A stretch of 42,332 nucleotides of DNA. Origin: Bacillota bacterium (lineage in GTDB: Bacteria; Bacillota; Limnochordia; Darwinibacteriales; Darwinibacteriaceae). The stretch lies in contig DURQ01000057.1 in assembly GCA_012840725.1 (NCBI GenBank), forward strand, positions 1-42,332, in the 5' to 3' direction. The translations under genes and the position numbers were made by a program. This document shows, one piece after another, positions 7,132 to 33,216 of the stretch; the first letter of the stretch is position 1, and each line of letters begins with the position of its first letter. Below the pieces are notes generated by a model. The model saw nothing but the letters and a program-made list of their open reading frames with translations, did no database searches and had not been told where the DNA came from.

Positions 7132-7173
7132 GGTGTAGCCTCCGATGAGTGATCACACATCTCTGGCTACACC
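7132..7173. terminator. Bidirectional terminator-like inverted repeat between convergent genes
   Basis: GGTGTAGCC (7132-7140) and GGCTACACC (7165-7173) are perfect 9-bp arms overlapping the end of the kinase gene, with additional GATG/CATC pairing in the loop. It lies between convergent transcripts. There is no T-tract on either side. Confidence 0.45.
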
Positions 7174-8142
7174 ATGGCTGGAGCTTTCCCTCAATCCCTC
7201 AGCCACTGGCGAGAGCTCCAGGCAGAGGTGCCTAGCGGCCAAGAATACCGCTCCTGCGGCAGCGTTGAAATCGGGCAGAGTGAGTCTCTGCCTGGGCGCG
7301 GCCAACCTGATCTCTTCTTCCATGGGAACAAGCACCCATCTTCCTGCGGAGAACACCCCTCCGCATGCTGCGACCCGCCCTTCGGTCTTGGTCAAACCGA
7401 GTTCAGCCAAGGCAGATACGGCTAAGCGGCCGAGCTGGCGGCCGGCATCGGCCAGGATCTCCTGTGAGGCCCCATGGCCTTGGTCAGCCAGCGTCCCGAT
7501 CGTTTTGCTGAATCCACCGATATAGCCGCGATCCAGCGGTGTCTTGTAGATCAGTGGGATAAGCTCACTTGGGTCAACAACGTTGAAATAGGACTTGACT
7601 GCCTCCAGGAGCACCTGATCTTCGGGGAGGCGGCGGTCATAGGCCCGCATAACGCGGCGCAGAGCTTGCAGAGCGATCCAAAAAGCGCCACCTTCATCGC
7701 CCAGCAGATAGCCCCAGCCGCCAACGCGATGGCTGCGTTCACCGTGGATGCCGTAGGCGATGGAACCGGTGCCTGCGATCACCGCCACGCCATCGGTTCC
7801 GCTCAAGGCGCCCAGTAAGGCTATGTGCGCGTCGTGGGCCACCACTACCCTGGTAAAGCCTTCAGGATGGAAGGCTTCTGTTAGCTCAGCCTGTTCCGAG
7901 GGGCGCCCAGCCCCGGAAACACCAATGGCCAGCGTGATTTGAGGCACTGCTTCCGCTTCTTCCAATCCACTCTGGGCCCAGCATCCCCGCATCGCCTCAC
8001 GGACAGACCGCAATACTCCACTAACGCCGTTCACGGTGTAGTTGGCGGGCCCTCCATGGCCGCGACCGAGCACCCGGCCTTCCAGGGTCGTCAGCAGAGC
8101 CTCCGTTGATGTTCCGCCGCAGTCTATCCCCAAGAGGTACAT
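7153..8142 (-). CDS. murK: BadF/BadG-type amino-sugar kinase (MurNAc/GlcNAc kinase)
   Basis: A 329-aa ASKHA-fold kinase. The N-terminal phosphate-1 motif reads GIDCGGTSTEALL, followed by VVAHDAHIALLGAL and the GVAVIAGTGSIAYG phosphate-2 region, then GGWGYLLGDEGGAFW and a late AACGGVFSAG adenosine region. BadF/BadG-type kinases include human NAGK and Clostridium MurK, which phosphorylates both MurNAc and GlcNAc in the cytosol. Here it is the last gene of the murQ-namZ-rpiR operon, 3 nt after the regulator, so phosphorylating MurNAc to MurNAc-6-P (the MurQ substrate) and GlcNAc released by NagZ is the natural role. The symbol rests on context; a GlcNAc-only kinase is possible. Confidence 0.85.
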   Translation of the reverse strand: MYLLGIDCGGTSTEALLTTLEGRVLGRGHGGPANYTVNGVSGVLRSVREAMRGCWAQSGLEEAEAVPQITLAIGVSGAGRPSEQAELTEAFHPEGFTRVVVAHDAHIALLGALSGTDGVAVIAGTGSIAYGIHGERSHRVGGWGYLLGDEGGAFWIALQALRRVMRAYDRRLPEDQVLLEAVKSYFNVVDPSELIPLIYKTPLDRGYIGGFSKTIGTLADQGHGASQEILADAGRQLGRLAVSALAELGLTKTEGRVAACGGVFSAGRWVLVPMEEEIRLAAPRQRLTLPDFNAAAGAVFLAARHLCLELSPVAEGLRESSSHGVARDV

Positions 8143-8145
8143 TGC

Positions 8146-9012
8146 CTATCCCCTCGCATTGGCTGACCTGCGCTGGGCGAGCGCTTGTTTCGTTCGCTCA
8201 ACGGCCTGCATCGATCGCCCGTAATCAACTAGGGCAACGGCGATAAACAGCGTATCGATCACACTCAGCTGAGCTATGCGTGACGAGATGGCGCCGCCCC
8301 GCAGGATGCTCTCCTGCGAAGAGATGAGAAGGACGTGATCGGCCGCACCGGCGACAGGGGAAGATGGATAGTTGGTTATGGCAATCGTGGCGGCACCGGC
8401 CGAGCGAGCCGTCTGCAGCGCATCCACAATTTCCCACGTCTCACCAGAGTAGGAGATACCCACAGCCACATCGCCGGGTTTGAGCAGGGACGCCCGGGTG
8501 ATCTGGGCATGGTAATCAACAAAAGCATTGGCTCTTAGGCCGATGCGCGAAAACTTCTGGGCCGCATCTACAGCCACATTCCCGGAAGCCCAGATGCCGT
8601 AAAAATGGATCTCGCCAGCGCTGCTCAAGATCTGAACAGCGGTTTGGAGTGTCTTTGGATCTAGAACCCGCCAGGTGTCCTGCAGGGCAGTGATGCTGGC
8701 CTGGAAGATCTTGTCCCGGATGGTTTCCACGTCATCGTCCAGCTCTATTGCGCCATAGATGGGTTGGGTCTTCACGGCCACGTCTTGGGCCAGCAGGATC
8801 TTAAACTCCTGAAATCCTCTGCACCCCAAACGCTTGCAGAACTTGACAACCGTGGCATCGCTCACCCCCGCTTCCAAGGCCAGTTCCGTGATGGTGAGGT
8901 GGACCGCCCGTGAAGGGTTACTTAATACCGCATCGACCACCTTCCGCTCTGCCGGTCGAAAATCTGAGTAGGCATTCCGCAGTTGAGCGATGATATTCGC
9001 AACCTGGCTCAT
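8146..9012 (-). CDS. murR: RpiR/MurR family transcriptional regulator (HTH plus SIS domain)
   Basis: About 288 aa. Residues 1-80 form an RpiR helix-turn-helix, with FRPAERKVVDAVL and LALEAGVSDATVVKFCKRLGCRGFQEFK as the recognition region. Residues about 110-260 form a SIS sugar-phosphate-binding domain, with IHFYGIWASGNVAVDAAQKF and VAVGISYSGETWEIVDAL. ATG 9012 has AGGGGTG 5 nt upstream; the TTG just before it is less likely. MurR proteins sense MurNAc-6-P and control MurNAc catabolism, and the gene lies between namZ and the kinase, so it most likely controls both divergent operons from the 12818-13078 region. The symbol is assigned by context. Confidence 0.87.
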   Translation of the reverse strand: MSQVANIIAQLRNAYSDFRPAERKVVDAVLSNPSRAVHLTITELALEAGVSDATVVKFCKRLGCRGFQEFKILLAQDVAVKTQPIYGAIELDDDVETIRDKIFQASITALQDTWRVLDPKTLQTAVQILSSAGEIHFYGIWASGNVAVDAAQKFSRIGLRANAFVDYHAQITRASLLKPGDVAVGISYSGETWEIVDALQTARSAGAATIAITNYPSSPVAGAADHVLLISSQESILRGGAISSRIAQLSVIDTLFIAVALVDYGRSMQAVERTKQALAQRRSANARG

Positions 9013-9033
9013 CAAAACACCCCTGTCTTTGGC

Positions 9034-10179
9034 TCAATAAAGGAAGTACTCTCTTCTCATCGCGGCGAAGTCCTGGGCCTGCTGTTCCCATTCCTCCAGA
9101 AGCCGAGCTACCCCCTGTTGATCCCGTTTTTGGATCAACTCCCGCAGGGCCGTAGTCCCCGCCAAAAGGTCAAAGAAGTACCTTCCCTTTGAGGGGCCAA
9201 GGAACTCGAACTCATCGTACATACTGCCCGTTACACTGAGCAGGTGAACAGCGGTAGAGATGGGCGAAAACTGCTCTCCGTCCAGAACATGGAGCTGGAC
9301 CCCTCCACAAACCTTGTCCTTATGTTTGCTGAACATGGGAGTGAAGTAGGTGGGACGAAAGGCTGCGCCGGGCAGACCCAAGTTGTTGAGTTCCTCTGCC
9401 CAAGCGTAGGGGTCAACCCAGGGTGCACCGATCAGTTCGAAGGGGCGGCACGTGCCCCGGCCCTCGGAGAGATTGGTGCCTTCCACCAGGCAGGTTCCCG
9501 GATAGACCAGCACCGTATCGGTCGTGGGCATGTTTGGAGAGGGCGGAACCCAGGGGAGGCCCGTGTCCTTCCAGGTGAATTCCCTCTGCCAGCCTTCCAT
9601 CTTCACCACCGTGAGATCTGCCCCGATCCTCCGTGTTTCGTTGAAAAACAGGGCCATTTCGCCGATGGTCAGCCCGTACCGGATGGGAATCGGGTAACCA
9701 ACAAAAGACTGGAGGCTTTCTTCCAGGATCCCTCCGCTCACAACCTCTCCCCCTAAGGGGTTAGGCCGATCGAGGACGAAAATCCGGAGGTTGGCTTCAG
9801 CCGCCGCCTCCAGCAGGTAGAGCAGGGAGTAGAGGTAGGTATAGAACCGGACGCCCACATCCTGGACATCGAAAACCAAGCAGTCTACCTGTTCGAGCAT
9901 CTCCTTGGTCGGCTTGAGGTTGGCTCCGTAGAGGCTGTAAACAGGCAGCCCTGTGCGGGGATCGACACCTGTCTCAACCTTTTCGCCTGCTTGAGCATTG
10001 CCCCGCAGGCCGTGTTCCAGGCCGAAGAGGGCGCTGACCCCGCCCGCTGCGGTCAGAAGATCCAGGGTGGATCTCAGCTGGCCATCCACGGCACTGGGGC
10101 TTGTGACGAGTCCGATCCGCATCTTCCCAACGTACCCATCCAACTTGGCCATAAAGCCGGCAATTCCCTGCTTAACCAC
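9034..10179 (-). CDS. namZ: DUF1343 exo-beta-N-acetylmuramidase (NamZ), cytoplasmic form
   Basis: About 381 aa covering the full DUF1343/NamZ family. Conserved stretches are an IGLVTSPSAVDGQLRSTLDLL start region, FGLEHGLRG, CLVFDVQDVGVRFYTYLYSL and FVLDRPNPLGGE. NamZ of Bacillus subtilis and Tannerella removes MurNAc from the non-reducing end of peptidoglycan fragments. Unlike the secreted B. subtilis enzyme, this one has no signal peptide, so it should act on imported fragments. I chose GTG 10179, with GGAAGGGG 8 nt upstream and just after the murQ stop; ATG 10200 would overlap murQ by 17 nt. Its operon neighbours murQ and murR support the assignment. Confidence 0.88.
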   Translation of the reverse strand: MVKQGIAGFMAKLDGYVGKMRIGLVTSPSAVDGQLRSTLDLLTAAGGVSALFGLEHGLRGNAQAGEKVETGVDPRTGLPVYSLYGANLKPTKEMLEQVDCLVFDVQDVGVRFYTYLYSLLYLLEAAAEANLRIFVLDRPNPLGGEVVSGGILEESLQSFVGYPIPIRYGLTIGEMALFFNETRRIGADLTVVKMEGWQREFTWKDTGLPWVPPSPNMPTTDTVLVYPGTCLVEGTNLSEGRGTCRPFELIGAPWVDPYAWAEELNNLGLPGAAFRPTYFTPMFSKHKDKVCGGVQLHVLDGEQFSPISTAVHLLSVTGSMYDEFEFLGPSKGRYFFDLLAGTTALRELIQKRDQQGVARLLEEWEQQAQDFAAMRREYFLY

Positions 10180-10183
10180 GGCC

Positions 10184-11110
10184 CTAGCCCCTTCCTCCAT
10201 CAGAAACCAGCTGCAGCGCCCTGCCCACTACGCCTTCTGCCTGGGCAAGGAGATCCTGCGCCGACTGCAGATCGCAGCCGGCCTTGAGCATGACGATGGC
10301 TGCCTTTATGTTGAACCCCGCCTTTTCCAGCACCTCGCACACCAGCTCTGCGGGTGCACCTGTCACTTCCTGAACGATCCGTTCGGCGCGCTGCACCAGC
10401 TTGGCGTTGGTGGGGATCATATCAACCATCAGATTCTGGTAGACCTTGCCCAGCTTGATCATGAGGGTGGTGCTCAAGGTGTTGAGCACGATCTTCTGCG
10501 CCGTTCCGGCCTTCATGCGCGTCGAGCCCGCCACCACTTCGGGGCCCACTACGGGCGCGATGGTGACATCGGCAATCTTGGCGATCTCTGAGTCGCCGTT
10601 GCAGGTTATGCCGATGGTGGCCAGCCCCATTTCTTTAGCCCTCTGCATGGGAGCCAGCACATAGGGGGTCCTCCCGCTGGCCGTGATCCCCACAAGGGCA
10701 TCGGCTGCCGTGGGGTTTTGGGCTAAAAAGTCCGTTAGGCCGGCCCTGCTGTCATCTTCCGCCTTTTCTACGGGGACAAACATGGCGCGCTGCCCGCCGG
10801 CGATGAGAGCCTTAACGCGGTCTTCTCCCACTCCGAAGGTGGGGAGAAGCTCCGCCGCGTCAAGCACACCGAGCCGCCCGCTGGTGCCAGCGCCCATGTA
10901 GAAGATTTTCCCCCCCTTTTTGAACACGGCCACCAGCAGATCTGCCGCCGCGGCGATGCGGGGGACTTCCCGCTGGACCGCGTCGATCACCTGCTGGTCT
11001 TCTCGAGTGATCAAAGCTACTATCTCAGTCGTGGAGAGCGTGTCAATGTTGAGGCTGGCTTCGTTGCGCTCTTCCGTGGTCAAGTTGTTCAGTTTAGGTA
11101 TGGACTCCAT
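10184..11110 (-). CDS. murQ: N-acetylmuramic acid 6-phosphate etherase
   Basis: About 308 aa with the SIS-fold MurQ signatures: YMGAGTSGRLGVLDAAE (including the catalytic-region Glu), FGVGEDRVKALIAGG, VGITASGRTPYV, and VGPEVVAGSTRMKAGTAQK followed by a C-terminal UBA-like helical tail. MurQ cleaves the D-lactyl ether of MurNAc-6-P to give GlcNAc-6-P and D-lactate in the cytosol. The start is ATG 11110, with GAAGGCGG 7 nt upstream; the longer frame to 11167 overlaps the upstream gene and lacks family similarity. It lies between the PIG-L gene and namZ. This is the most secure functional call of the locus. Confidence 0.96.
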   Translation of the reverse strand: MESIPKLNNLTTEERNEASLNIDTLSTTEIVALITREDQQVIDAVQREVPRIAAAADLLVAVFKKGGKIFYMGAGTSGRLGVLDAAELLPTFGVGEDRVKALIAGGQRAMFVPVEKAEDDSRAGLTDFLAQNPTAADALVGITASGRTPYVLAPMQRAKEMGLATIGITCNGDSEIAKIADVTIAPVVGPEVVAGSTRMKAGTAQKIVLNTLSTTLMIKLGKVYQNLMVDMIPTNAKLVQRAERIVQEVTGAPAELVCEVLEKAGFNIKAAIVMLKAGCDLQSAQDLLAQAEGVVGRALQLVSDGGRG

Positions 11111-11141
11111 CACACAACCGCCTTCACAGATAGTAACTCCC

Positions 11142-11855
11142 TTAGAGAGGCTTGCCCGGAAGGGCATCTCCCTTGTGAACCTTGGCGCCTTTGGGACGCA
11201 TCAGCCCCACGGCGTACTTCTTCCTTGCGAGGCACCCGCGCATGACCGCCAGGGCCTTGTAGTAATCGAGGTAGCGGAAGTCGGAGATGGACCCGCTGAA
11301 CAGTTCATACTCGGAAACGGCCCTAAGCCACTGATCAAAGCTGTCTGTGATGTCCACGTAGGTGTCCACCTCAAAGCCATAGGGGTCTTCCCAGTTTTCG
11401 GCGAAGAACTGGGTGTAGCACCCGTGAGCCGGCAGTTCTCGTTTGATGGCGGGCAGAGCCGCGTAAAAGATGGCGTCTTGAACGATGTAGTACGTGGCCT
11501 CGTGGTCTTTGTGCATACTGCCCTTCCAGTGGGTGATCATGATATCCGGTTTTTCTGCCCGGATAATATCCGCTAAAGCATATTTGACTTCATCGTTAAC
11601 CGGCAGCTCCGCATCTTTGTAGGGCAGGAAGATGGCCTTAGCTCCCAGGGCAGCCGCGGCCCGGTGCCCCTCCTCGATTTTCTGCTTGGCATAGTCCTCT
11701 GGGGATAGGGTTTTGTGCCCCTTTTCGCCCGGCGTTAGGTGGACCAGCACCGCCTCATGGCCGCTGCTTGTGTATTTGGCAACGACGGCCCCGGCCATGA
11801 TCTCCGCATCAGCGGCGTGGGCCCCGACAACCATTATCTTGTGTTTCCCTTCCAT
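11142..11855 (-). CDS. PIG-L (LmbE) family deacetylase-like protein with altered active-site motif
   Basis: A 237-aa member of the PIG-L/LmbE zinc N-deacetylase family. The usual AHPDDE motif reads AHAADAE: His13 and Asp16, the zinc ligands by MshB numbering, are present, but the general-base Asp15 is Ala and Glu17 is Ala. The downstream THWKGSMHKDHEAT segment supplies the further His residues of the family. ATG 11855 has AGGAGGG at 6 nt. It lies 11 nt after the GNAT stop and 31 nt before murQ, firmly in the operon. By context it may act on GlcNAc, MurNAc or their phosphates, and the adjacent GNAT could re-acetylate. The missing base suggests a changed mechanism or a non-catalytic role. Confidence 0.85.
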   Translation of the reverse strand: MEGKHKIMVVGAHAADAEIMAGAVVAKYTSSGHEAVLVHLTPGEKGHKTLSPEDYAKQKIEEGHRAAAALGAKAIFLPYKDAELPVNDEVKYALADIIRAEKPDIMITHWKGSMHKDHEATYYIVQDAIFYAALPAIKRELPAHGCYTQFFAENWEDPYGFEVDTYVDITDSFDQWLRAVSEYELFSGSISDFRYLDYYKALAVMRGCLARKKYAVGLMRPKGAKVHKGDALPGKPL

Positions 11856-11866
11856 TGATTGCCCTC

Positions 11867-12817
11867 CTAAGCAAGCTCCTTTTTGCATACGTAGAACCGG
11901 CGGCTGACCGTGAACCCAACGCTTTGGTAAAGGCGGCCAGCGGCGCTCGTTTCACTGGTCCACAGGAACCATGCCCCGTGCATCCCCTGGGCCCGCATGG
12001 AGCTCAGACAGAGATGGAGCAGGATCTTGCCCAATCCTTTGCCCCGCTCTTCCTCGGCAACGCCAAAGGGGCCGAAGCGTTCGGGTATCCCTTCATAACC
12101 TCCGTGGAGGCAGAAACCAACCAGGTTGGAGCCATGGCGGGCTACAAAAATCCTGGACAAAGGAAGCCCCTGCAGGATCCCTTCGCGGATGGCCCGGCCC
12201 CAATCGGGGTTGAACCTCTCGTTGGCAAAGGCGATCAGCTCAACCAAGTCAGAACTGCCTGCAGTCCTGAAAGAGTACCCTTCGGCCTCCCGCACTTTGA
12301 TCAGCTCGCGCACTTCCGAAGGCATGCCGTAGCCAACCAGGTTCAGATCCATGGCAGCGGCAGTGTACAACCTAGCAAACCCCAGCTTCTGCAGGAATTC
12401 CCACCCTTCCGGGTAGGTCTGTGCGTCTAGGCCGGGCAGAACGTAGTTGGGTGCGTAAGAGGCGAAGAACACGTTTCTGCGGCCCTGCCTTCGGAGAAAG
12501 TCAAAGGCCTGTTCGAACAGGGCACGCCCGATCCCCTGCCTGCGGTGCTCTGGATGGACAAAGAAGAACGGAATCCAGCCGTTCTCCGGTTCCAAATCGC
12601 TTCCAGCCATGGGCATCAGGCGCCGCACCGCATAACAGCAGCCCACGAGCTCGCCTTGGGAAAAGGCCAGGCGAAGGCCCTCTGGGTCGAAGTTACCGTC
12701 CAACAGGACCAGGCGCACGAATCTGTCCAAGGTGATGGGATCCTGGGGCAGGGCCTCATTCCACAGCTCCACAATCGCCCTTTCATCTCCCGGCAGATAG
12801 CCGCGATACTTAATCAT
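11867..12817 (-). CDS. GNAT family acetyltransferase, two-domain
   Basis: A 316-aa protein with two GNAT domains. The N-terminal domain (about 1-150) has FFFVHPEHRRQGIGRALFEQA, a full R-x-x-G-x-G acetyl-CoA loop. The C-terminal domain (about 160-310) has GPFGVAEEERGKGLGKILLH and ends with LYQSVGFTVSRRFYVC, so both acetyl-CoA sites look intact. It is the first gene of the minus-strand murQ operon, with an AGGGGG ribosome site. An acceptor is not evident. An amino sugar or a muropeptide amine is suggested only by the neighbourhood, in particular the PIG-L deacetylase directly downstream. Confidence 0.88.
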   Translation of the reverse strand: MIKYRGYLPGDERAIVELWNEALPQDPITLDRFVRLVLLDGNFDPEGLRLAFSQGELVGCCYAVRRLMPMAGSDLEPENGWIPFFFVHPEHRRQGIGRALFEQAFDFLRRQGRRNVFFASYAPNYVLPGLDAQTYPEGWEFLQKLGFARLYTAAAMDLNLVGYGMPSEVRELIKVREAEGYSFRTAGSSDLVELIAFANERFNPDWGRAIREGILQGLPLSRIFVARHGSNLVGFCLHGGYEGIPERFGPFGVAEEERGKGLGKILLHLCLSSMRAQGMHGAWFLWTSETSAAGRLYQSVGFTVSRRFYVCKKELA

Positions 12818-13078
12818 GGTCGGTTCCCCCTGTTCCTTCCAAAAATGGCCTCATCAGGTCTAACGTATCGGTGCTGATGGGTGAGCAAAAATATTTACTC
12901 GTTTTGCTCCGGAAATCAGCCTCATCAGTAAGGTGATTTCTTCACCATTTGGGAGGAATTCACCTTCCAACGAAGAAAAATATCGTCAAAGAAGGGGGGA
13001 TCGGCGTTAAGAACTGCTTTGCGTGTGGTTAAGGTGAGCTTTTGGCATCTAAGGCTTTCATTCGAGGAGGTAAAAGAC
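12818..13078. promoter_or_regulatory. Divergent control region of the two MurNAc-salvage operons
   Basis: The region separates the minus (GNAT-pigL-murQ-namZ-murR-murK) and plus (importer-nagZ-anmK) operons. It holds a perfect inverted repeat GAGCAAAA (12883-12890) / TTTTGCTC (12902-12909), the identical 10-mer GCCTCATCAG at 12848-12857 and 12919-12928, and a GGTGA-N5-TCACC repeat near 12931-12945. These are candidates for MurR and other operator sites. No consensus -35/-10 pair stands out, so the promoters may be weak or activator-dependent. Confidence 0.5.
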
Positions 13079-14371
13079 GTGCCTAAGAGAATGTGCGTTT
13101 TAACGGCTCTGCTCTTGGTCCTGGCAGTCAGCGCTTCCGCCTTTGCCAACTGGACCGGGACGATTACCATCTGGGACTGCCCAAGATGGGGTAACGAAGA
13201 AGATGACAAGTTCCACTGGATCAAGGGTAAAATCGCCGAGTTTGAGGCCAGCCACCCGGGTGTGAAGATCGAGCTGGTCGAAACACCCTGGGCCGAACTG
13301 GGCGAGAAACTCAGCGTGGCCATTGCCGGCAGAGCATGGCCGGATATTGTCCCTGTGGATATCAGCGGCGCCATTAACCGCAACCATCTGGAACAGGGAG
13401 TTGTGGAAGCCCTCGACGATTATATGACCCCTGAGGAACTGGAGGACTTCTTCCCAGGCGCCCTCGAGGCCTACACCTACAAAGGCAAGCTGTACGGCAT
13501 CCCCATGTCCATGAGCGTCCACGTTATGCTGCTCAACCTGGACCATTTTGCCGAGGCTGGCGTGGAACCGCCTGAAAACGGCCGCTGGACTTGGGATGAG
13601 TTCGTGGAAAAAGCAAAAGCCCTCACCTTTGACAGTGACGGCGACGGCGTGATCGACAAGTACGGGTTCTCCACCTACATCCTCCCAGGCTACTATGAGG
13701 CTTGGCCCTTCTTCTACATGGATGGAGCTCAGCCCATCGTGAACGACGAGTTTGGCTTCAACACCCCCGAAGCCATCAGCGCCATCCAGAAGCTTGTTGA
13801 TCTGAAGTTCGTACACGGCGCTGCACCAGTTGAGATGGGCAGCTCTGATGTGGGCGGAACCTTCAGGGCTCTTGCTCGTGAAGGAGAACGCTTCGTGGCC
13901 ATCCAGCCCTGGAACTCCTGGGCCATCGCTACTGTGACAGGCGAAGGCGTCAACCACATGCCCAATGTGATGGTGGCAGAGTATCCCATCGGCGAATCCG
14001 GCCGGCCGATCACAATTGGCGGTGCCGGCGGCTGGGTAGTCATGTACCAGAAAGACCGCAGCAAGCTGGATGTGGTTGTGGAGTTCGCCAAGTTCCTCTC
14101 CACTACCGAGGAGCAGTACACCTTTGCTCTCAACTACGGCACGTTCCCGTCTAGGAAGTCTACCGAGGCCATGGATCCCTTTGCGGATCAGCCCCTGATG
14201 GCCCGGGCGGCGGAGATGTTGGAGTATGCCGTCACCGTTCCAGAGCATCCCAACTGGGCGCAGATCGATGCCCGCATCCAGGCCGAGCTCCAGCTGATCT
14301 TCGCCGGGGAGAAGAGTGTGGAGCAGGGCATGAACGACGCCGCAGCGCAGGTTCAGCGCCTGCTGCGGTAG
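13079..14371 (+). CDS. ABC transporter sugar-binding protein (family 1), muropeptide/amino-sugar importer
   Basis: A 430-aa extracytoplasmic solute-binding protein. GTG 13079 has GAGGAGG 8 nt upstream. Residues 1-22 form a Sec signal peptide with cleavage likely after AFA and no lipobox Cys. The mature part has family-1 features: EFEASHPGVKIELVETPW, PDIVPVDISGAI, GKLYGIPMSMSVHVMLLNLDHFAEAGVEPP and a late GGAGGWVVMYQKDRSKLDVVVEF. Genes for two matching permeases follow, and NagZ and AnmK are downstream, so the ligand is probably a peptidoglycan-derived saccharide such as a GlcNAc-MurNAc fragment. The ligand cannot be read from sequence alone. Confidence 0.9.
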   Translation: MPKRMCVLTALLLVLAVSASAFANWTGTITIWDCPRWGNEEDDKFHWIKGKIAEFEASHPGVKIELVETPWAELGEKLSVAIAGRAWPDIVPVDISGAINRNHLEQGVVEALDDYMTPEELEDFFPGALEAYTYKGKLYGIPMSMSVHVMLLNLDHFAEAGVEPPENGRWTWDEFVEKAKALTFDSDGDGVIDKYGFSTYILPGYYEAWPFFYMDGAQPIVNDEFGFNTPEAISAIQKLVDLKFVHGAAPVEMGSSDVGGTFRALAREGERFVAIQPWNSWAIATVTGEGVNHMPNVMVAEYPIGESGRPITIGGAGGWVVMYQKDRSKLDVVVEFAKFLSTTEEQYTFALNYGTFPSRKSTEAMDPFADQPLMARAAEMLEYAVTVPEHPNWAQIDARIQAELQLIFAGEKSVEQGMNDAAAQVQRLLR

Positions 14372-14399
14372 TAAAGCAGAAGACAGCAATCAAGACTTG

Positions 14400-14425
14400 G
14401 GGGGCGCCAAAACGCCCCCTCTTTT
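14400..14425 (+). terminator. Leaky terminator between binding-protein and permease genes
   Basis: GGGGGCG and CGCCCCC form a 7-bp GC stem around CCAAAA, followed by TCTTTT. It lies 28 nt after the binding-protein stop. Such attenuators let binding protein exceed permease levels. Confidence 0.7.
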
Positions 14426-14444
14426 GACAGTCAGGAGGTTGCCC

Positions 14445-15323
14445 ATGCTCAAGCGTATCTGGAAAGCCCGTTCCGGCTACCTGTTCATCCTCCCCAAGTT
14501 CGTTTTCTTCACCGTCTTTGTCCTGGTGCCGATCATCTGGTCCTTCTTCGTCTCTTTCCAGGAGTACCGCATTTTCGGAACCGAATGGGTGGGCCTGCGC
14601 AACTTCAGAGATGCCCTCCAGGATGACCTGTTCTGGATGGCCGTTTCCAATACCCTGCGCTATGCAGTGGTAGTCACACCCTGTTCGGTCGCCATCGCCC
14701 TGATCTTGGCTTCTTTAATCCATCCCCTGAGGCCGGGCGCCCAGACCTTTTTCCGCGCCGCCTTTTACCTGCCCACCGTGGCCTCCAGTGTCGTTATCTC
14801 CATGGTCTGGCGCTGGATCTTCCAGACCCGCTACGGTTTGGCCAACTACTTCCTCAGCCTAGTGGGCATCGAGCCCATCAACTGGCTGCACAGTTCGGCC
14901 TGGGCCTTAAGATCGGTGATCATCATGGCGGTTCTGACGCCGCCGGGAGTTGGGGTCATCCTCTATCTTGCGGCCATGGGCTCCATTCCTGAAAGTCTCT
15001 ATGAAGCGGCCCGCATCGACGGAGCGAACCGCCTCATGCAGTGGTGGAAGATCACCGTGCCGCTGGTCAAACCCACTACCCTGTATCTTCTCATCGTGTC
15101 CACCATCGGCTCTTTCCAGGTGTTCGACCAGGTTATGATGATGACTCAGGGCGGGCCCGGCTACGCTACAACAACCATCGTGCACCGCATCTACAACGTG
15201 GCGTTCCGCGACTTCGAGTTCGGCTATGCTGGAGCAATGTCCATGCTGCTGTTTGCCGCGGTGATTGTCCTTGCGCTGATCCAATCGAAGCTGGTCTCCA
15301 GTGATGCTGAGTACAAAGGGTAG
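14445..15323 (+). CDS. ABC sugar transporter permease, MalF/UgpA type
   Basis: A 292-aa inner-membrane permease with six predicted membrane segments. The EAA loop that docks the ATPase reads EAARIDGANRLMQWWKITVPL and lies in the last third as expected. ATG 14445 follows AGGAGG at about 7 nt. It is followed by the second permease after a 9-nt gap. It forms the heterodimeric channel of the muropeptide importer. No ATPase gene is in the operon, so a shared MsmX-type ATPase encoded elsewhere is inferred. Confidence 0.93.
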   Translation: MLKRIWKARSGYLFILPKFVFFTVFVLVPIIWSFFVSFQEYRIFGTEWVGLRNFRDALQDDLFWMAVSNTLRYAVVVTPCSVAIALILASLIHPLRPGAQTFFRAAFYLPTVASSVVISMVWRWIFQTRYGLANYFLSLVGIEPINWLHSSAWALRSVIIMAVLTPPGVGVILYLAAMGSIPESLYEAARIDGANRLMQWWKITVPLVKPTTLYLLIVSTIGSFQVFDQVMMMTQGGPGYATTTIVHRIYNVAFRDFEFGYAGAMSMLLFAAVIVLALIQSKLVSSDAEYKG

Positions 15324-15332
15324 GTGGAGACG

Positions 15333-16229
15333 ATGAAAACACGCCGAGTATCCAAAATCGGGATGGCCGTCATCTATGCGGTCCTGATCGCTTGGGCCGT
15401 CATCTCTTTGATTCCCCTTTATTGGGTGTTCACAACATCCCTCCAGCAGCCTGGCGAAGTGGACGTGATGCCGCCGAAGCTGATTCCCACTGTGATCAGC
15501 CGCTACCTGCCCCTGCGCCTATCGGGTGAAGCAGAAGAGGCAGCAGCCTTAGTGGACGGTGCTTTGGAGAGTTATCGGCTGCTGTTTCGGAAGACCAATA
15601 TGGGCCGCTGGTTCCTGAACAGCCTCATGATTTCCCTCTGCGCTACCACCGGCATTTTGCTCTTGGATTCCATGGCCGCCTTCAGCTTCGCCAAAAAGGA
15701 GTTCCCCGGGCGGAATTTCCTCTTCTGGCTCATGGTGGGAACCATGACCATCCCCGGACAGGTGCTCCTGGTACCCATGTTCATGGTGGTCAGGGAGCTC
15801 AACCTGGTCAACACCCCCTGGGCGGTTCTCCTTCCCCAGCTGTCCATGGTTTTTGGGGTCTTTATGCTGAGGCAGTTTATGCTTACCATCCCCAGTGAAC
15901 TCATGGAAGCGGCCCGCATTGACGGCGCATCCGAGTTCGGAATCTACTGGCGGATCATGCTGCCTCTCGCCAAGCCGGGGCTGGCAACCTTGGCGATTCT
16001 GACCTTCACCTCGAGCTGGAACTCTTTCCTGTGGCCGCTCATCGCGATCCAGAAATCCGAATGGTTTACGCTCCCCGTGGGCTTGAAGACGCTGCAGGAC
16101 CAAAACCTGGTGAACTACAGCCTCCTCATGAGCGGGGCAGCGGTCGCCGCTGTGCCCATGATCATCGTCTTCCTTTCCTTCCAGAAATACTTCGTGAAGG
16201 GGCTTACCCTCGGAGGAGTTAAGGGATAG
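15333..16229 (+). CDS. ABC sugar transporter permease, MalG/UgpE type
   Basis: A 298-aa permease, partner of the preceding gene. It has six membrane segments and an EAA motif EAARIDGASEFGIYWRIMLPLAKP, and ends with the FQKYFVKGLTLGGVKG tail common to MalG/UgpE proteins. An insertion of roughly 40 residues after the first membrane segment (RLSGEAEEAAALVDGALESY region) forms an extracytoplasmic loop. I prefer ATG 15333 with AGGTGG close upstream over GTG 15324. It is 29 nt from nagZ. Confidence 0.92.
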   Translation: MKTRRVSKIGMAVIYAVLIAWAVISLIPLYWVFTTSLQQPGEVDVMPPKLIPTVISRYLPLRLSGEAEEAAALVDGALESYRLLFRKTNMGRWFLNSLMISLCATTGILLLDSMAAFSFAKKEFPGRNFLFWLMVGTMTIPGQVLLVPMFMVVRELNLVNTPWAVLLPQLSMVFGVFMLRQFMLTIPSELMEAARIDGASEFGIYWRIMLPLAKPGLATLAILTFTSSWNSFLWPLIAIQKSEWFTLPVGLKTLQDQNLVNYSLLMSGAAVAAVPMIIVFLSFQKYFVKGLTLGGVKG

Positions 16230-16258
16230 GCCCATCTTCTACAGAAAAGGTGAAGCAG

Positions 16259-17836
16259 ATGCAGAAACTGACTGTTGAGGCCAAGGCCGCTCAGCTGCTC
16301 ATGTTCGGGTTCCCAGGAACCGAAGTATCCCCCTTCCTCAAAGACTTCATATTGCAAAACGGCCTGGGCGGCGTCATCCATTTCGCCCGAAACGTCAAGA
16401 ACCCTTCGCAGTTAGCTGCGCTCAACCATGAACTGCAGAGTATAGCCCGGGAGTCGCCAAATGGGATCGGCCTGCTCATCGCCGCGGACCAAGAGGGCGG
16501 CACCGTCGTCCGCTTAACGGAGGGAGTGGCAGTTCCGCCGAGCGCCATGGCCCTAGGGGCAGCAGGCAGCAAGAGCATCACCGAGCGCATCTGCTCCTTA
16601 TCCGGCTTTGAACTTGCTGCCACAGGGATCAACATGGTCTTTGCCCCCGTCTTGGATGTGAACAGCAACCCACTCAACCCAGTGATCGGAGTGCGTTCCT
16701 TTGGGGAGAATCCGGCCAGAGTAGCCGAACATGGCTCAGCGGCCATTCGGGGCTTTCAGAGGTATGTCGCGGCGGTGGCCAAGCATTTCCCCGGGCATGG
16801 GGATACTGAGCTCGATTCCCACCTGGCCCTTCCTGCGGTACAACACGGGCGGCAGCGGTTGGCGGAAGTGGAACTTCTGCCCTTTAGGAAAGCCATTGCC
16901 AAAAACGTGTCGGGGATCATGACCGCCCATGTGGTGTTCCCGGCTATCGAACCCACGCCTGGGCTGCCTGCAACCCTTTCTTACCGTGTGCTGACGGGAC
17001 TCCTCCGGGACGAGCTGGGGTATGAAGGGCTGATCCTAACCGACTGCATGGAGATGGCCGCGATCTCCGAGACCTTCGGGACGGTCGAAGCAGCCGTGAT
17101 GGCTGTGGAAGCCGGAGCCGATCTGATCCTGATCAGCCAAACCGAAGCGCGGCAGCGGGGAGCCTTTGAGGCCATCGTGGCAGCGGTGAAATCGGGGAGG
17201 ATTCCTGAAGAGCGCTTGGATCAATCCCTGGAAAGGATCCTGAAGGTCAAACACATGCTCTTGAGCAGGGCCCAGCCTCCGCTTGATCTGGTTGGATCCC
17301 GCGAGCACATAGAGATCGTGCGGAAAGCGATCAACCGGAGCATTACGGTGGTGCAGGATCAAGGCAGCCTCCCTATCCGGGAAGGCACCAGGATTTTGGT
17401 GGTAGAACCCATCAAAACAGCTGCCAACATCGCCGAAGACAGGCTCGTAAACGTAGGAACCTTAGCAGCTGCGCTGCTTGGACAGGGCCTCACCAACCTT
17501 GAGCAGATGACGGTTACTGCCCAAGTCTCGCCTGAAGAGCACAGGGCTGTGCTTGCCAAAGCCCAAGGCTTCGACATGGTCGTGGTGGTTACTTCTGATG
17601 CCCACCGCCAAAAAGGGCAGGCCGGGCTGGTTCGCGCCCTTATTGACGCAGGACGAAGGGTCATCGCAGTTGGTGCCCGCACCCCCTATGAGCTGGCCGC
17701 ATTCCCTGATGTGCCCACCTATGTGGCGGCTTACGGAAGCAGGCCCATGGTCTGGGACGAGACGGCCAAGGTCCTGGTCGGAAAGAGCAGGGCGGCAGGA
17801 CGGCTGCCTGTTACCATACCCACAGCGCTGAAATAA
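16259..17836 (+). CDS. nagZ: Glycoside hydrolase family 3 beta-N-acetylglucosaminidase
   Basis: A 525-aa GH3 enzyme. The family motifs appear in order: AADQEGGTVVRL, FAPVLDVNSNPLNPVIGVRSFG, VAKHFPGHGDTELDSH with the Asp-Ser-His element that provides the acid/base dyad in Gram-positive NagZ, and LTDCMEMAAI with the nucleophile Asp. A second C-terminal domain (about 370-525) resembles the extra domain of B. subtilis NagZ. It has no signal peptide, so it acts in the cytoplasm, releasing non-reducing GlcNAc from imported muropeptides. ATG 16259 has AAGGTGA 5 nt upstream. It sits between importer permeases and the AnmK fusion gene. Confidence 0.94.
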   Translation: MQKLTVEAKAAQLLMFGFPGTEVSPFLKDFILQNGLGGVIHFARNVKNPSQLAALNHELQSIARESPNGIGLLIAADQEGGTVVRLTEGVAVPPSAMALGAAGSKSITERICSLSGFELAATGINMVFAPVLDVNSNPLNPVIGVRSFGENPARVAEHGSAAIRGFQRYVAAVAKHFPGHGDTELDSHLALPAVQHGRQRLAEVELLPFRKAIAKNVSGIMTAHVVFPAIEPTPGLPATLSYRVLTGLLRDELGYEGLILTDCMEMAAISETFGTVEAAVMAVEAGADLILISQTEARQRGAFEAIVAAVKSGRIPEERLDQSLERILKVKHMLLSRAQPPLDLVGSREHIEIVRKAINRSITVVQDQGSLPIREGTRILVVEPIKTAANIAEDRLVNVGTLAAALLGQGLTNLEQMTVTAQVSPEEHRAVLAKAQGFDMVVVVTSDAHRQKGQAGLVRALIDAGRRVIAVGARTPYELAAFPDVPTYVAAYGSRPMVWDETAKVLVGKSRAAGRLPVTIPTALK

Positions 17837-17864
17837 GCTGATCGAAATGGAAAGGATGCCGGCA

Positions 17865-20081
17865 ATGGGTCGTTATGCGGTTGGGTTAATGTCGGGTACA
17901 TCGCTTGATGGAATTGATGCCGCCTTGGTGCACGTGGGAGAGCGCCCAGGCGACATCTCTTTAGTGCACTTTCTCACTCTTCCTTACACCCCCGAACAGA
18001 GAACGGCCCTCCTGCGCCTCTGCCAGCCTGGAGAGTCATCGGTGGCCGAGATCTGCGCCATGAACTTCGAGCTTGGCGAATTGTTCGCAGCGGCGGTCAA
18101 GCAGCTCTTGGCCGAAGCGGGCTTCGGGCCGGAACAGATCGCCGTGATCGGCTCCCACGGGCAGACCATTTACCACATTCCAGGCCGTTCCACCCTGCAG
18201 ATCGGTGAACCGGCAGTGATTGCAAACCGGACGGGGATCACCACGGTGGCCGACTTCCGCCCTGCAGATATTGCCGCAGGGGGCCAGGGGGCGCCGCTCA
18301 TCCCTTACTTCGATCAGATCATGTTTGGCAGTTCCGATGGCCTGACTGCGGTGCAGAACATCGGCGGGATCGGGAATGTCACCCTTGTTGGCCGCCAGGC
18401 AGACCAGCTGCCCTGCATCGCCTTTGACACCGGCCCTGGGAACATGGTGATCGACGCCATCGTTCGGCTGATGACAGACGGCGCCTTAAGCTTCGACGAG
18501 GGTGGAAGACTCGCTGCCCAGGGCCGGGTAAACCACGAGCTTCTAGCGCGGCTTATGAGCCATCCCTACTTCAGCGAGCTTCCTCCTAAGACTACGGGGC
18601 GTGAAGTGTTTGGCTCGGCGTTCAGCACAGAGCTCTGGCACAAGAGCGGCCTTTCGTCCTGGGACCTGCTGGCCACCGTCACCGCCTTCACAGCAGAAAG
18701 CATAACTGACCAGTACCGCCGCTTTGTGGCCCCATACGGAGAAATTGAGCGGGTGATTGTCGGCGGTGGAGGGAGCCACAATGACACTCTCCTCAGTATG
18801 CTGCGGGAGCGGCTGAACTGCCCCGTCTATGTCCACGAAGACTTCGGGATATCCAGTGATGCGAAAGAGGCCATGGCCTTTGCCCTCATGGCCCTGGCCA
18901 CCCTGGACGGGAAGAGCAGCAATGTCCCCCGGGCGACGGGCGCACGGATGCCCGCTGTTTTGGGAAAAACCGTGCTGCCCGAAAGGCAGAAATCCCTGGG
19001 GAGAGTGGGAAGTGAGAAGGAGGCCTTGAGCCTGCAGTCGTTTAGGCTCGTGGAGGAATTTGTGCAGAAGCGCAATGCCTCGGGCGCCGTGGCCATGGTG
19101 AGCTATCGCGGAGTAGAGTATGGGCCCGCGGCCTTCGGCCATGTGGGCTTTTTCCCCGGGGCTGAGCCGGTCACACCAGAGAGCATCTTTGACCTCGCCT
19201 CCCTTACCAAGGTTGTGGGCACCACCACAGTAGTCCTGCAGCTCCTCGAGGAAGGCGTGCTGGACCTCCAGGCAGAGGTGGGAGAACTCCTAAGCCATGT
19301 TCCGGCAGACAAGGCCAGAATCACGCTTGAGCGGCTGCTCAGCCACACTTCGGGGCTTCCTGCCTGGGCGCCCCTCTACCAGCTGGCCGCAACGCCTCAA
19401 GAGGTCGTGCCGGAACTTCTGAAGCTGCCGATGGAGTATGAGCCGGGCACGCAGGTGGTTTACTCCTGCATGGGTTACATCCTCTTGGGCCACATTCTGG
19501 AGACGGTAACCGGCACTCCCCTCAAGGAACTGATCCAGCAGAGGGTGATAGAGCCTCTGGATCTCAAGGACACCTGTTACAACCCTCCCGAGGCTGTACT
19601 GCCCCGGGTGGTATATACCGAATGGTGTGTCCGCAGGAAAGAGTTTCTGCGGGGGACAGTACATGATGAAAATGCGCAGGCTTTGGGCGGAGTCAGCGCC
19701 AACGCGGGGCTCTTTTCCACAGCCCGTGATCTGGCCAAGTTCGCCCAGATGATCCTGAACAGGGGAGAGATCAATGGGAAGAGGCTGCTGAACGACAGCA
19801 CTTTCGAATTGCTCAGCAAGTGTTTCACTGAGGGGCTGAATGAGCGCCGGACCTTGGGCTGGCTGCTGCACCAGAAACAAGGATCCTCGGGGGGCGGGCT
19901 CCTTTCTCCCTCAGCCATCGGCCATACCGGGTTTACCGGAACATCGCTCTGGATCGACAGAGAGCAGGAACTTTTTGTGATCCTCTTGACCAACAGGGTT
20001 CATCCGGTGCGGACCAATGACGCGATTATCCGTTTCAGGCCAGCTTTCCACGATGCGGTTGTCAGGGAATTGACACAGTAG
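17865..20081 (+). CDS. Fusion of anhydro-MurNAc kinase (AnmK) with an AmiE-like serine hydrolase
   Basis: A 738-aa two-domain protein in one uninterrupted frame. Residues 1-about 370 are a complete AnmK kinase: YAVGLMSGTSLDGIDAAL, IGSHGQTIYH, VADFRPADIAAGGQGAPL, NIGGIGNVT, FDTGPGNM and VGGGGSHN. Residues about 385-738 are a penicillin-binding/beta-lactamase-fold hydrolase: nucleophile motif SLTK (S446-K449), second motif YSC at 533-535 in place of Tyr-x-Asn, and HTG at 687-689. B. subtilis AmiE (MurNAc-L-Ala amidase) belongs to this fold and sits in the same mur/nag cluster, so the half may remove peptide from MurNAc. No signal peptide is present. ATG 17865 has GGAAAGGA 8 nt upstream. Other esterase activities remain possible. 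Confidence 0.9.
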   Translation: MGRYAVGLMSGTSLDGIDAALVHVGERPGDISLVHFLTLPYTPEQRTALLRLCQPGESSVAEICAMNFELGELFAAAVKQLLAEAGFGPEQIAVIGSHGQTIYHIPGRSTLQIGEPAVIANRTGITTVADFRPADIAAGGQGAPLIPYFDQIMFGSSDGLTAVQNIGGIGNVTLVGRQADQLPCIAFDTGPGNMVIDAIVRLMTDGALSFDEGGRLAAQGRVNHELLARLMSHPYFSELPPKTTGREVFGSAFSTELWHKSGLSSWDLLATVTAFTAESITDQYRRFVAPYGEIERVIVGGGGSHNDTLLSMLRERLNCPVYVHEDFGISSDAKEAMAFALMALATLDGKSSNVPRATGARMPAVLGKTVLPERQKSLGRVGSEKEALSLQSFRLVEEFVQKRNASGAVAMVSYRGVEYGPAAFGHVGFFPGAEPVTPESIFDLASLTKVVGTTTVVLQLLEEGVLDLQAEVGELLSHVPADKARITLERLLSHTSGLPAWAPLYQLAATPQEVVPELLKLPMEYEPGTQVVYSCMGYILLGHILETVTGTPLKELIQQRVIEPLDLKDTCYNPPEAVLPRVVYTEWCVRRKEFLRGTVHDENAQALGGVSANAGLFSTARDLAKFAQMILNRGEINGKRLLNDSTFELLSKCFTEGLNERRTLGWLLHQKQGSSGGGLLSPSAIGHTGFTGTSLWIDREQELFVILLTNRVHPVRTNDAIIRFRPAFHDAVVRELTQ

Positions 20082-31458: not shown

Positions 31459-32016
31459 CTCACCCCGTTTCAACCACCCTAACCTGATCCTAGGAAAACA
31501 GAAGGGATGCGGCTTGATTTTACTTGCTATCTCGCGGCAAGCCGGTCCCGAAGGTGCCGGCTCCTCCCATCGGCAACTGCGCACTTCGAGCCAGTGCGGA
31601 TCACCTGGATGTTCAGGTTGACCGAAAACCACGCGTGTATTCTCCTTTTCAACAACCAAACCCTTTGTCCCATTTGGACCCACACACGCCCAAATCCGGA
31701 CTCTGATCGAGGTCGATGTTAGGGCGATTACACGACCTGAAGTAAGCAGGATGTTCAGTTCCTTTAGACCCGGAGGAAGCAGCTGCCCGATGAGGACGGG
31801 GTCGTGGAAGAATACCTGGATGAGCTGCTCGAGGAATCAGTCACTATGCACAAGCGTTGGCAAGAAATCGGTGGTAGCCACAACGGATCGACAACAACGA
31901 TTCAGCGGCCGCGTAGAAAGCCGCTCAGCCAATACAGTTTTCACCCAAATACTGCAGGACTCATTTGGCGTTTGGGGAAAGGTTCTTCAGCAATAACTCC
32001 AGGGAGGCGGCGTATC
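31459..32016. other. Intergenic region between AraC-type and serine hydrolase genes
   Basis: About 560 bp. A plus-strand frame from 31768 reads into the serine hydrolase with a charged, Leu-rich stretch (LPDEDGVVEEYLDELLEESV) that looks protein-like. It lacks a ribosome site and the part just before 32017 is not protein-like. It may be a short relic or an N-terminal extension of the hydrolase. No promoter is clear. Confidence 0.35.
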
Positions 32017-33216
32017 TTGCGGCGCAGAATACTCGTTGTACTGCTGTTGGTCCTCTTGGCTTCGGTCGCGGCATACAAACCAGTTATGAAGATGTACCAC
32101 GGCCTCACGTTGTTCAGTCCAGACAAGCTGACCGTCAATTTCCGCAGCCTAGACAGGTGGTTCGCCGTCCGGTCTGTTGCCGCAGGCCCCGAAAAGGCGG
32201 ATTTCAACTACGACCTGCAGGACCTGCCTCAAACGTACGTCTACGCAGGCCAGACCAAGAGCACTGCTCAATTTATGGAAGACACTCAAACCACGGGCCT
32301 CATCGTAACCAGGGGAGGCACCGTGGTGTATGAGGAGTACTTCCTGGGAAACAGCGCTTCATCTCGCTGCATCCTGTGGTCAGTGTCCAAGTCGATCGTG
32401 TCCGCACTGGTAGGCATAGCCGTGGAAGAGGGTTTGATCCGTGACTTAAGCGATCCAGTCACCGCCTATGTGCCCAGCCTTGCTGGCAGCGGGTACGATG
32501 GCGTCAGCATCAAAGATGCCCTTCAGATGTCTTCAGGGATCCGGTTTATAGAGGACTACGCTGACCCCAAGTCTGACGTGAACCGGATGGGGAGCATATC
32601 CGTTGGGGTGGGCGGGACGCTGGAAAGCTTCCTGGGTAAGCTGGAAAACGAACGGGAGCCGGGAAGCAGCTGGAAGTACGCCAGCAGCGATACGCAGGTA
32701 CTCGGCATGGTGCTTAGGGTGGCCACCGGAAGGGACCTGGCCAGCTACGCCCAGGAAAAACTCTGGCAGCCCGCTGGCATGGAGGCAGATGCCCATTGGC
32801 TCGTGGACAAGGCTGGGGTGGAAGCTGCGTTCGGGGGCCTCAATGTGGTTCTGCGTGACATGGCACGCTTCGGCAATATCTACCTCAATAACGGTTTCTG
32901 GAACGGAAGGCAGATCATCAGCCCGGAATGGATCAGGGCCTCGATCACCCCGGATGCGCCCCGCCTTCGCTTGGTGGAAAGCGATGGTTCAGGCGTGAAC
33001 ATGGGGTATGGCTACCAGTGGTGGGTGCCTGACGGAGAAGAAGGGGATTTCCTGGCCATGGGCATCTACGGGCAGGCCGTGTACGTCAACCCGCGGCGTG
33101 GGGTGGTAGTCGCAAAGACCTCAGCTTACCGGGATTACCTTAAGGACGGCAAGGCCATGGAACTGGAGAGTGTGGAGTTCTTCCGGGCTATCGCACGGGC
33201 CTTTGGGACGCTGTAG
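32017..33216 (+). CDS. Membrane-anchored beta-lactamase-fold serine hydrolase (EstB/NylB-like)
   Basis: About 399 aa. TTG 32017 starts RRRILVVLLLVLLASVAAY, an N-terminal anchor, and has GGGAGG 9 nt upstream, which decides the start over GTG 31804. The catalytic motifs are SVSK (nucleophile Ser and Lys in LWSVSKSIVSALVG), YAS in SWKYASSDTQVLGMVL, and a third strand MGIYGQAVYV in place of KTG/HTG, as in 6-aminohexanoate-dimer hydrolase-like enzymes. The active site would face outside the cytoplasmic membrane. A carboxylesterase or D-amino-acid peptidase role is inferred. It lies upstream of a putative lipoprotein gene. Confidence 0.83.
   Translation: MRRRILVVLLLVLLASVAAYKPVMKMYHGLTLFSPDKLTVNFRSLDRWFAVRSVAAGPEKADFNYDLQDLPQTYVYAGQTKSTAQFMEDTQTTGLIVTRGGTVVYEEYFLGNSASSRCILWSVSKSIVSALVGIAVEEGLIRDLSDPVTAYVPSLAGSGYDGVSIKDALQMSSGIRFIEDYADPKSDVNRMGSISVGVGGTLESFLGKLENEREPGSSWKYASSDTQVLGMVLRVATGRDLASYAQEKLWQPAGMEADAHWLVDKAGVEAAFGGLNVVLRDMARFGNIYLNNGFWNGRQIISPEWIRASITPDAPRLRLVESDGSGVNMGYGYQWWVPDGEEGDFLAMGIYGQAVYVNPRRGVVVAKTSAYRDYLKDGKAMELESVEFFRAIARAFGTL

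Follow-up and report, generated by a model that had tools for sequence, protein, structure and literature searches.

Cleavage of the MurNAc-L-Ala amide is the job of AmpD in Gram-negative bacteria and of the secreted enzyme AmiE in Bacillus subtilis. In B. subtilis, this MurNAc-L-Ala amidase is encoded in the murQRP-amiE-nagZ-ybbC(namZ) cluster, AmiE and NagZ are extracellular, and the PTS MurP imports MurNAc (PMC5061867). A NagZ joined to a beta-lactamase domain is also already known, namely RmNag3 of Rhodothermus marinus (PMC6987092). No fusion of AnmK to AmiE or a serine hydrolase, and none to MurQ, was found in the open papers that we searched, which is weak evidence of novelty. Here we describe a gene in a 42,332-nucleotide stretch of DNA from the Bacillota (the window) that joins an anhydro-MurNAc kinase to an AmiE-like hydrolase. 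The chemistry is known and the domain combination, which is real, is new.

The fused gene is a single open frame on the forward strand that runs from an ATG at 17865 to a stop at 20079-20081 and encodes 738 amino acids without an internal stop; an alternative in-frame ATG upstream, at 17847, has a poor ribosome site. Residues 4-368 form a complete AnmK domain (PF03702, E 3e-103, profile positions 2-363 of 367) and residues 394-717 a complete hydrolase domain of the beta-lactamase fold (PF00144, E 4e-67, profile positions 3-316 of 329). A sequence-only reading of this DNA had described such an uninterrupted frame with SLTK, Tyr and HTG motifs. Its coordinates are right, both profiles are covered to near full length, and the motifs are present as S446-L-T-K449, Y533-S-C and H687-T-G. 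The AnmK-hydrolase fusion is thereby confirmed, and chance is excluded as the cause of the domain matches. An AlphaFold2 model of the fusion (mean pLDDT 93.8) shows two folded domains joined by a nine-residue disordered linker (378-386), with a pTM of 0.61 that leaves the domain interface and relative orientation undefined. Compared with the nearest relative, both halves are under purifying constraint (pN 0.19 and 0.23; pS 0.80, which is saturated).

Table 1. Features of the fused gene and of the surrounding salvage locus in the window.
Feature	Coordinates	Strand	Evidence
AnmK half (anhydro-MurNAc kinase), complete; catalytic Asp188 (FDTGPG) at 18426-18428	17865..18986	+	PF03702, NF007148, 3qbx structure match
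CAG (Gln375), position of the anmK-ending TAG in the nearest relative L033/L004	18987..18989	+	Alignment
Linker or former intergenic stretch; residues 378-386 with pLDDT <50	18990..19040	+	Alignment, model
Shine-Dalgarno AAGGAGG, perfect, in frame; relic or live internal hydrolase start	19017..19023	+	Chance expectation 0.0016 in 30 nt
AmiE/YfeW-like serine hydrolase half; Ser446 19200, Lys449 19209, Tyr533 19461, His687 19923; stop 20079-20081	19041..20081	+	PF00144, 32% YfeW identity, alignment
ABC sugar importer: binding protein 13019-14371, permeases 14397-15323 and 15324-16229	13019..16229	+	Profile matches; order shared with L165
NagZ-type GH3 beta-N-acetylglucosaminidase, directly upstream of the fusion, without signal peptide (by inspection)	16250..17836	+	PF00933 E 4e-88
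MurQ, MurNAc-6-phosphate etherase, divergent operon	10184..11167	-	TIGR00274 342 bits, cut-off 302
NamZ exo-N-acetylmuramidase, without signal peptide (by inspection)	9034..10200	-	PF07075/PF20732
MurR/RpiR-type regulator	8146..9015	-	Profile matches
BadF/BadG-type sugar kinase, candidate GlcNAc/MurNAc kinase	7153..8142	-	PF01869 E 7e-38; NagK model E 1e-35, below cut-off

The kinase half scores 474 bits against the AnmK equivalog model NF007148 (cut-off 387) and carries the FDxGPGN motif, in which D188, which we take to be the catalytic residue, corresponds in alignment to the Asp of FDTGPG in levoglucosan kinase and AnmK. Levoglucosan kinase is the top PDB match by sequence, but it is very improbable that this half is a levoglucosan-type kinase: its model superposes on anhMurNAc-bound AnmK (3qbx) with a TM score of 0.94, against 0.80-0.81 for the levoglucosan type, and the locus is one of MurNAc salvage. 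On structure, NF007148 and locus together, we put the levoglucosan kinase identity aside in favour of AnmK. As AnmK acts on the anhydro sugar, it is unlikely that this half uses reducing-end MurNAc, which the sequence-only reading had offered as an option.

The fused gene is the last of an ABC–ABC–NagZ–AnmK operon that diverges from MurQ–NamZ–MurR (Table 1), and the operon order is the same in a related locus (L165). Signal peptides were assessed by eye from the N-termini. A PIG-L-type deacetylase (BshB1-like, below cut-off; 11142-11888) separates MurQ from a double GNAT in the window, and a deacetylase of this type also adjoins MurQ in L165. Elsewhere, the genome encodes a lytic transglycosylase, a source of the anhydro sugar, and the one Amidase_2 (AmpD-type) protein found in it has a lipoprotein-type N-terminus. 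No cytosolic AmpD was found in the genome, an absence that is no proof in a draft of 103 contigs and 84% completeness.

The hydrolase half is 32% identical to Escherichia coli YfeW, and the nearest NCBIfam model is that of PBP4B/YfeW, although the score lies under that family's cut-off. Across 38 aligned relatives, the motif residues Ser, Lys, Tyr and His never vary, and conservation extends to a VHDENA..GG.S..AGLFS stretch; the invariant columns (S62, K65, Y149, D217, A230, G231, H303 and G305) give the half the signature of an AmiE/YfeW-like family, whose Brevibacillus and Ammoniphilus members align with it at 36-38%. Following Tyr-Ser, the clade of the window protein has Cys, most other members including E. 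coli YfeW have Asp, and a haloarchaeal member has Gly. Thus, the earlier remark that Cys replaces the usual Asn of the second motif is true relative to class C beta-lactamases, whereas within its own clade Cys is normal. The half is not a class C beta-lactamase, as it has YSC and HTG instead of YxN and KTG and scores 41.5 bits with bla_class_C (cut-off 415), and its PF00144 fold is distinct from the Zn-dependent Amidase_2 fold of AmpD. Nor does it share the secretion of B. subtilis AmiE: it is C-terminal to a cytosolic kinase, and those of its relatives that are separate genes begin directly with the folded domain and have no signal peptide. A second PF00144 serine hydrolase in the window (31804-33216, 470 amino acids) is distant kin of the fused one. 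The haloarchaeal member, on a plasmid of Haladaptatus pallidirubidus (L184:7830-9071), is 41% identical, has Gly in motif 2 and sits away from recognisable MurNAc genes.

Because the hydrolase and NagZ are without signal peptides and the one AmpD-type amidase found is a lipoprotein, the best reading from sequence is that the hydrolase half is AmiE/YfeW-like and probably acts as a cytosolic muropeptide amidase. It is rather unlikely that it is instead a D-Ala carboxypeptidase or an esterase of the PBP4B or family VIII type. PBP4B is the best curated match and has been reported to have DD-carboxypeptidase activity (Vega and Ayala 2006, as cited in PMC5061867), and family VIII esterases and EstG are the closest solved folds of the modelled half. 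However, these solved enzymes are just ~22% identical to it, HTG stands in place of the KTG of PBPs, and yfeW itself sits in the murQP operon. The family moreover adjoins or is fused to NagZ, NamZ, MurQ and AnmK, all of them sugar-side enzymes, which argues for a muropeptide amidase.

Genes for this hydrolase adjoin AnmK, NagZ, NamZ or MurQ in Bacillota, Vulcanimicrobiota (Eremiobacterota), Poribacteria and Thermomicrobium roseum. AnmK and the hydrolase do not strictly depend on each other, as in some relatives the hydrolase adjoins NagZ and AnmK is missing, or AnmK has no hydrolase close by. In one genome (G013; L168:4692-6530 and G013:C94:28269-28959), several stops interrupt the AnmK gene that precedes NagZ, and an intact hydrolase lies elsewhere, adjoining a sugar ABC transporter. 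Fusions with other partners recur, independently for MurQ, NagZ and NamZ: NagZ-hydrolase in Acidobacteriota and Bacteroidota, NamZ-hydrolase in Burkholderia savannae and in G051, and NagZ-hydrolase-NamZ triple fusions in Acidobacteriota (L192:553-4722 and L195:1141-5994, open frames of 1390 and 1618 amino acids). MurR and hydrolase share one frame in G450 (L198:2053-4464) and lie in different frames in its near-identical sister G040 (L208), so the join may be a fusion of very recent origin or may reflect a frame error. MurQ-hydrolase fusions are found in Bacillota beside AnmK, NagZ and a BadF-type kinase (L201:4347-6497, L202:4296-6500, L204:4313-6379). They occur in 12 of the 14 genomes of one family (that of G435), in one of which the match extends no further than residue 610, with MurQ and hydrolase in separate frames in one further genome, and form one supported clade in a tree of 71 hydrolases. 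As MurQ and AnmK work on cytosolic intermediates, their fusions support a cytosolic role of the hydrolase.

Searches of 37 genomes of the order, 73 of the class and a 399-genome sample of the phylum returned the AnmK-hydrolase join itself from the window genome only. It was absent from 80 loci of other genomes and from the matches listed for 347 Acidobacteriota, a sample in which few candidates per genome were scored. Several candidates were rejected as the same fusion: in G051 (L028) and L037, adjacent genes share a frame with a stop in between; in Eremiobacterota-type loci, the hydrolase precedes AnmK in a separate, overlapping frame; and the long-frame AnmK candidates in Acidobacteriota have no hydrolase in the same frame. 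The database check that the sequence-only reading had proposed thus returned the two-domain architecture from the window genome and from none of the relatives examined. That reading would have taken such an absence as a sign of an assembly artefact. The architecture is indeed unshared, but a recent loss of a stop explains this better.

The nearest relative (L033, from the same record as G020/L004; 67% identity) shares the gene order NagZ-AnmK-hydrolase, with AnmK and hydrolase in one frame and a single TAG between them. This TAG aligns under the window CAG at 18987-18989. In G022, the same operon has the anmK and hydrolase genes in different frames. In the tree, the window hydrolase falls into a supported set of five (100/97), the other four of which are separate genes. 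As these four are separate and the nearest relative is split by the TAG, the fusion is a recent change on the window branch, and it looks to have arisen through a TAG -> CAG change that removed the stop between an anmK and an amiE-like gene lying next to each other in one frame. A one-base consensus or assembly error, such that anmK and hydrolase are really two genes parted by TAG, would fit a fusion confined to one draft genome, a difference of exactly one base between CAG and TAG, and a Shine-Dalgarno sequence that is still there. We nevertheless regard such an error as improbable. Apart from the stop, the junction departs from that of the nearest relative in several ways: the start ATG of the L033 hydrolase is TTG in the window, the window junction has 12 additional in-frame bases, and the Shine-Dalgarno lies 2 nt from the TTG. 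In addition, the linker, albeit short, has a third-position G+C (0.79) that fits that of the coding sequence (0.71). Read from sequence, these several differences lower the probability that one base was miscalled, and stop loss is preferred over artefact.

The Shine-Dalgarno AAGGAGG at the junction is the only one in the frame, has an anti-SD pairing energy of -11.7 kcal/mol, and is followed after 2 nt by TTG 19026 and after 8 nt by CTG 19032. Its retention suggests that the fusion is recent, and production of a separate hydrolase may continue. Production of a stand-alone hydrolase from TTG 19026 or CTG 19032 alongside the fusion, which is compatible with stop loss, would account for a perfect motif with strong pairing just where relatives begin the hydrolase. 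We consider it doubtful, as the TTG spacing is just 2 nt and CTG, although 8 nt away, seldom serves as a start, whereas hydrolases of relatives start with ATG or GTG at a spacing of 6-8 nt where measured.

Overall, these data suggest that the window protein is probably a two-domain enzyme of cytosolic MurNAc salvage that was fused recently by TAG -> CAG stop loss. In the pathway that we propose, the ABC importer would take up (anhydro)muropeptides or their sugars and cytosolic NagZ would take off GlcNAc. The C-terminal serine hydrolase would then cut the MurNAc-L-Ala amide, at the lactyl group of anhydroMurNAc or MurNAc, the N-terminal AnmK would open and phosphorylate the anhydro sugar to MurNAc-6-P, and MurQ would turn MurNAc-6-P into GlcNAc-6-P. 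The BadF-type kinase near NamZ would serve reducing or free MurNAc or GlcNAc, presumably like the clostridial MurNAc/GlcNAc kinase. The fusion would link two consecutive steps at fixed stoichiometry, with channelling of the intermediate or stoichiometry alone as the possible effect. Of the sequence-only reading, the join of AnmK to an AmiE/YfeW-like hydrolase in a MurNAc-salvage locus holds and a cytosolic location is most likely, albeit in an architecture that the relatives examined lack. Synteny in several phyla and the fusions to MurQ, NagZ and NamZ link the hydrolase to this pathway; we infer the coupled amidase-kinase activity, and likewise the amidase specificity, the cytosolic location and any kinetic benefit. 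More tentatively, in lineages without a cytosolic AmpD, the AmiE-like hydrolase may be the cytosolic muropeptide amidase, repeatedly fused (to NagZ, NamZ, AnmK, MurQ and once MurR), and the window protein may be a working bifunctional amidase-kinase that passes anhydroMurNAc between its sites. The fusion is a concrete candidate for the cytosolic amidase of MurNAc-salvaging bacteria that lack AmpD, and it illustrates cleanly how stop-codon loss can join neighbouring genes of an operon. The Rosetta-stone set of fusions places in peptidoglycan recycling a large, poorly assigned serine-hydrolase family, labelled in annotations as penicillin-binding protein 4B or as serine hydrolase.

Among known systems, the B. 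subtilis cluster has the same functions, whereas the window has an ABC importer, AnmK, and a NagZ and hydrolase without signal peptides. The E. coli murQ-murP-yfeW (PBP4B) genes include a hydrolase of the same family (32% identity) next to murQ, but yfeW is a separate gene with an N-terminal leader in its translation, and no AnmK is present in the stretch viewed. On a plasmid of Thermomicrobium roseum (TRD_RS12360-12420), an ABC importer, the hydrolase followed directly by anmK, NagZ, a BadF kinase and murQ lie together; unlike in the window, the genes are separate and the hydrolase precedes anmK. RmNag3 likewise has a hydrolase, a C-terminal beta-lactamase domain, fused to a peptidoglycan-salvage enzyme, but its partner is NagZ, a signal peptide is present, and R. 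marinus AnmK is separate and intracellular (PMC6987092). The MurQ-hydrolase fusions (L201, L202 and L204) carry the same hydrolase on a cytosolic MurNAc-salvage enzyme, as in the window, with MurQ as the partner and a family-wide distribution.
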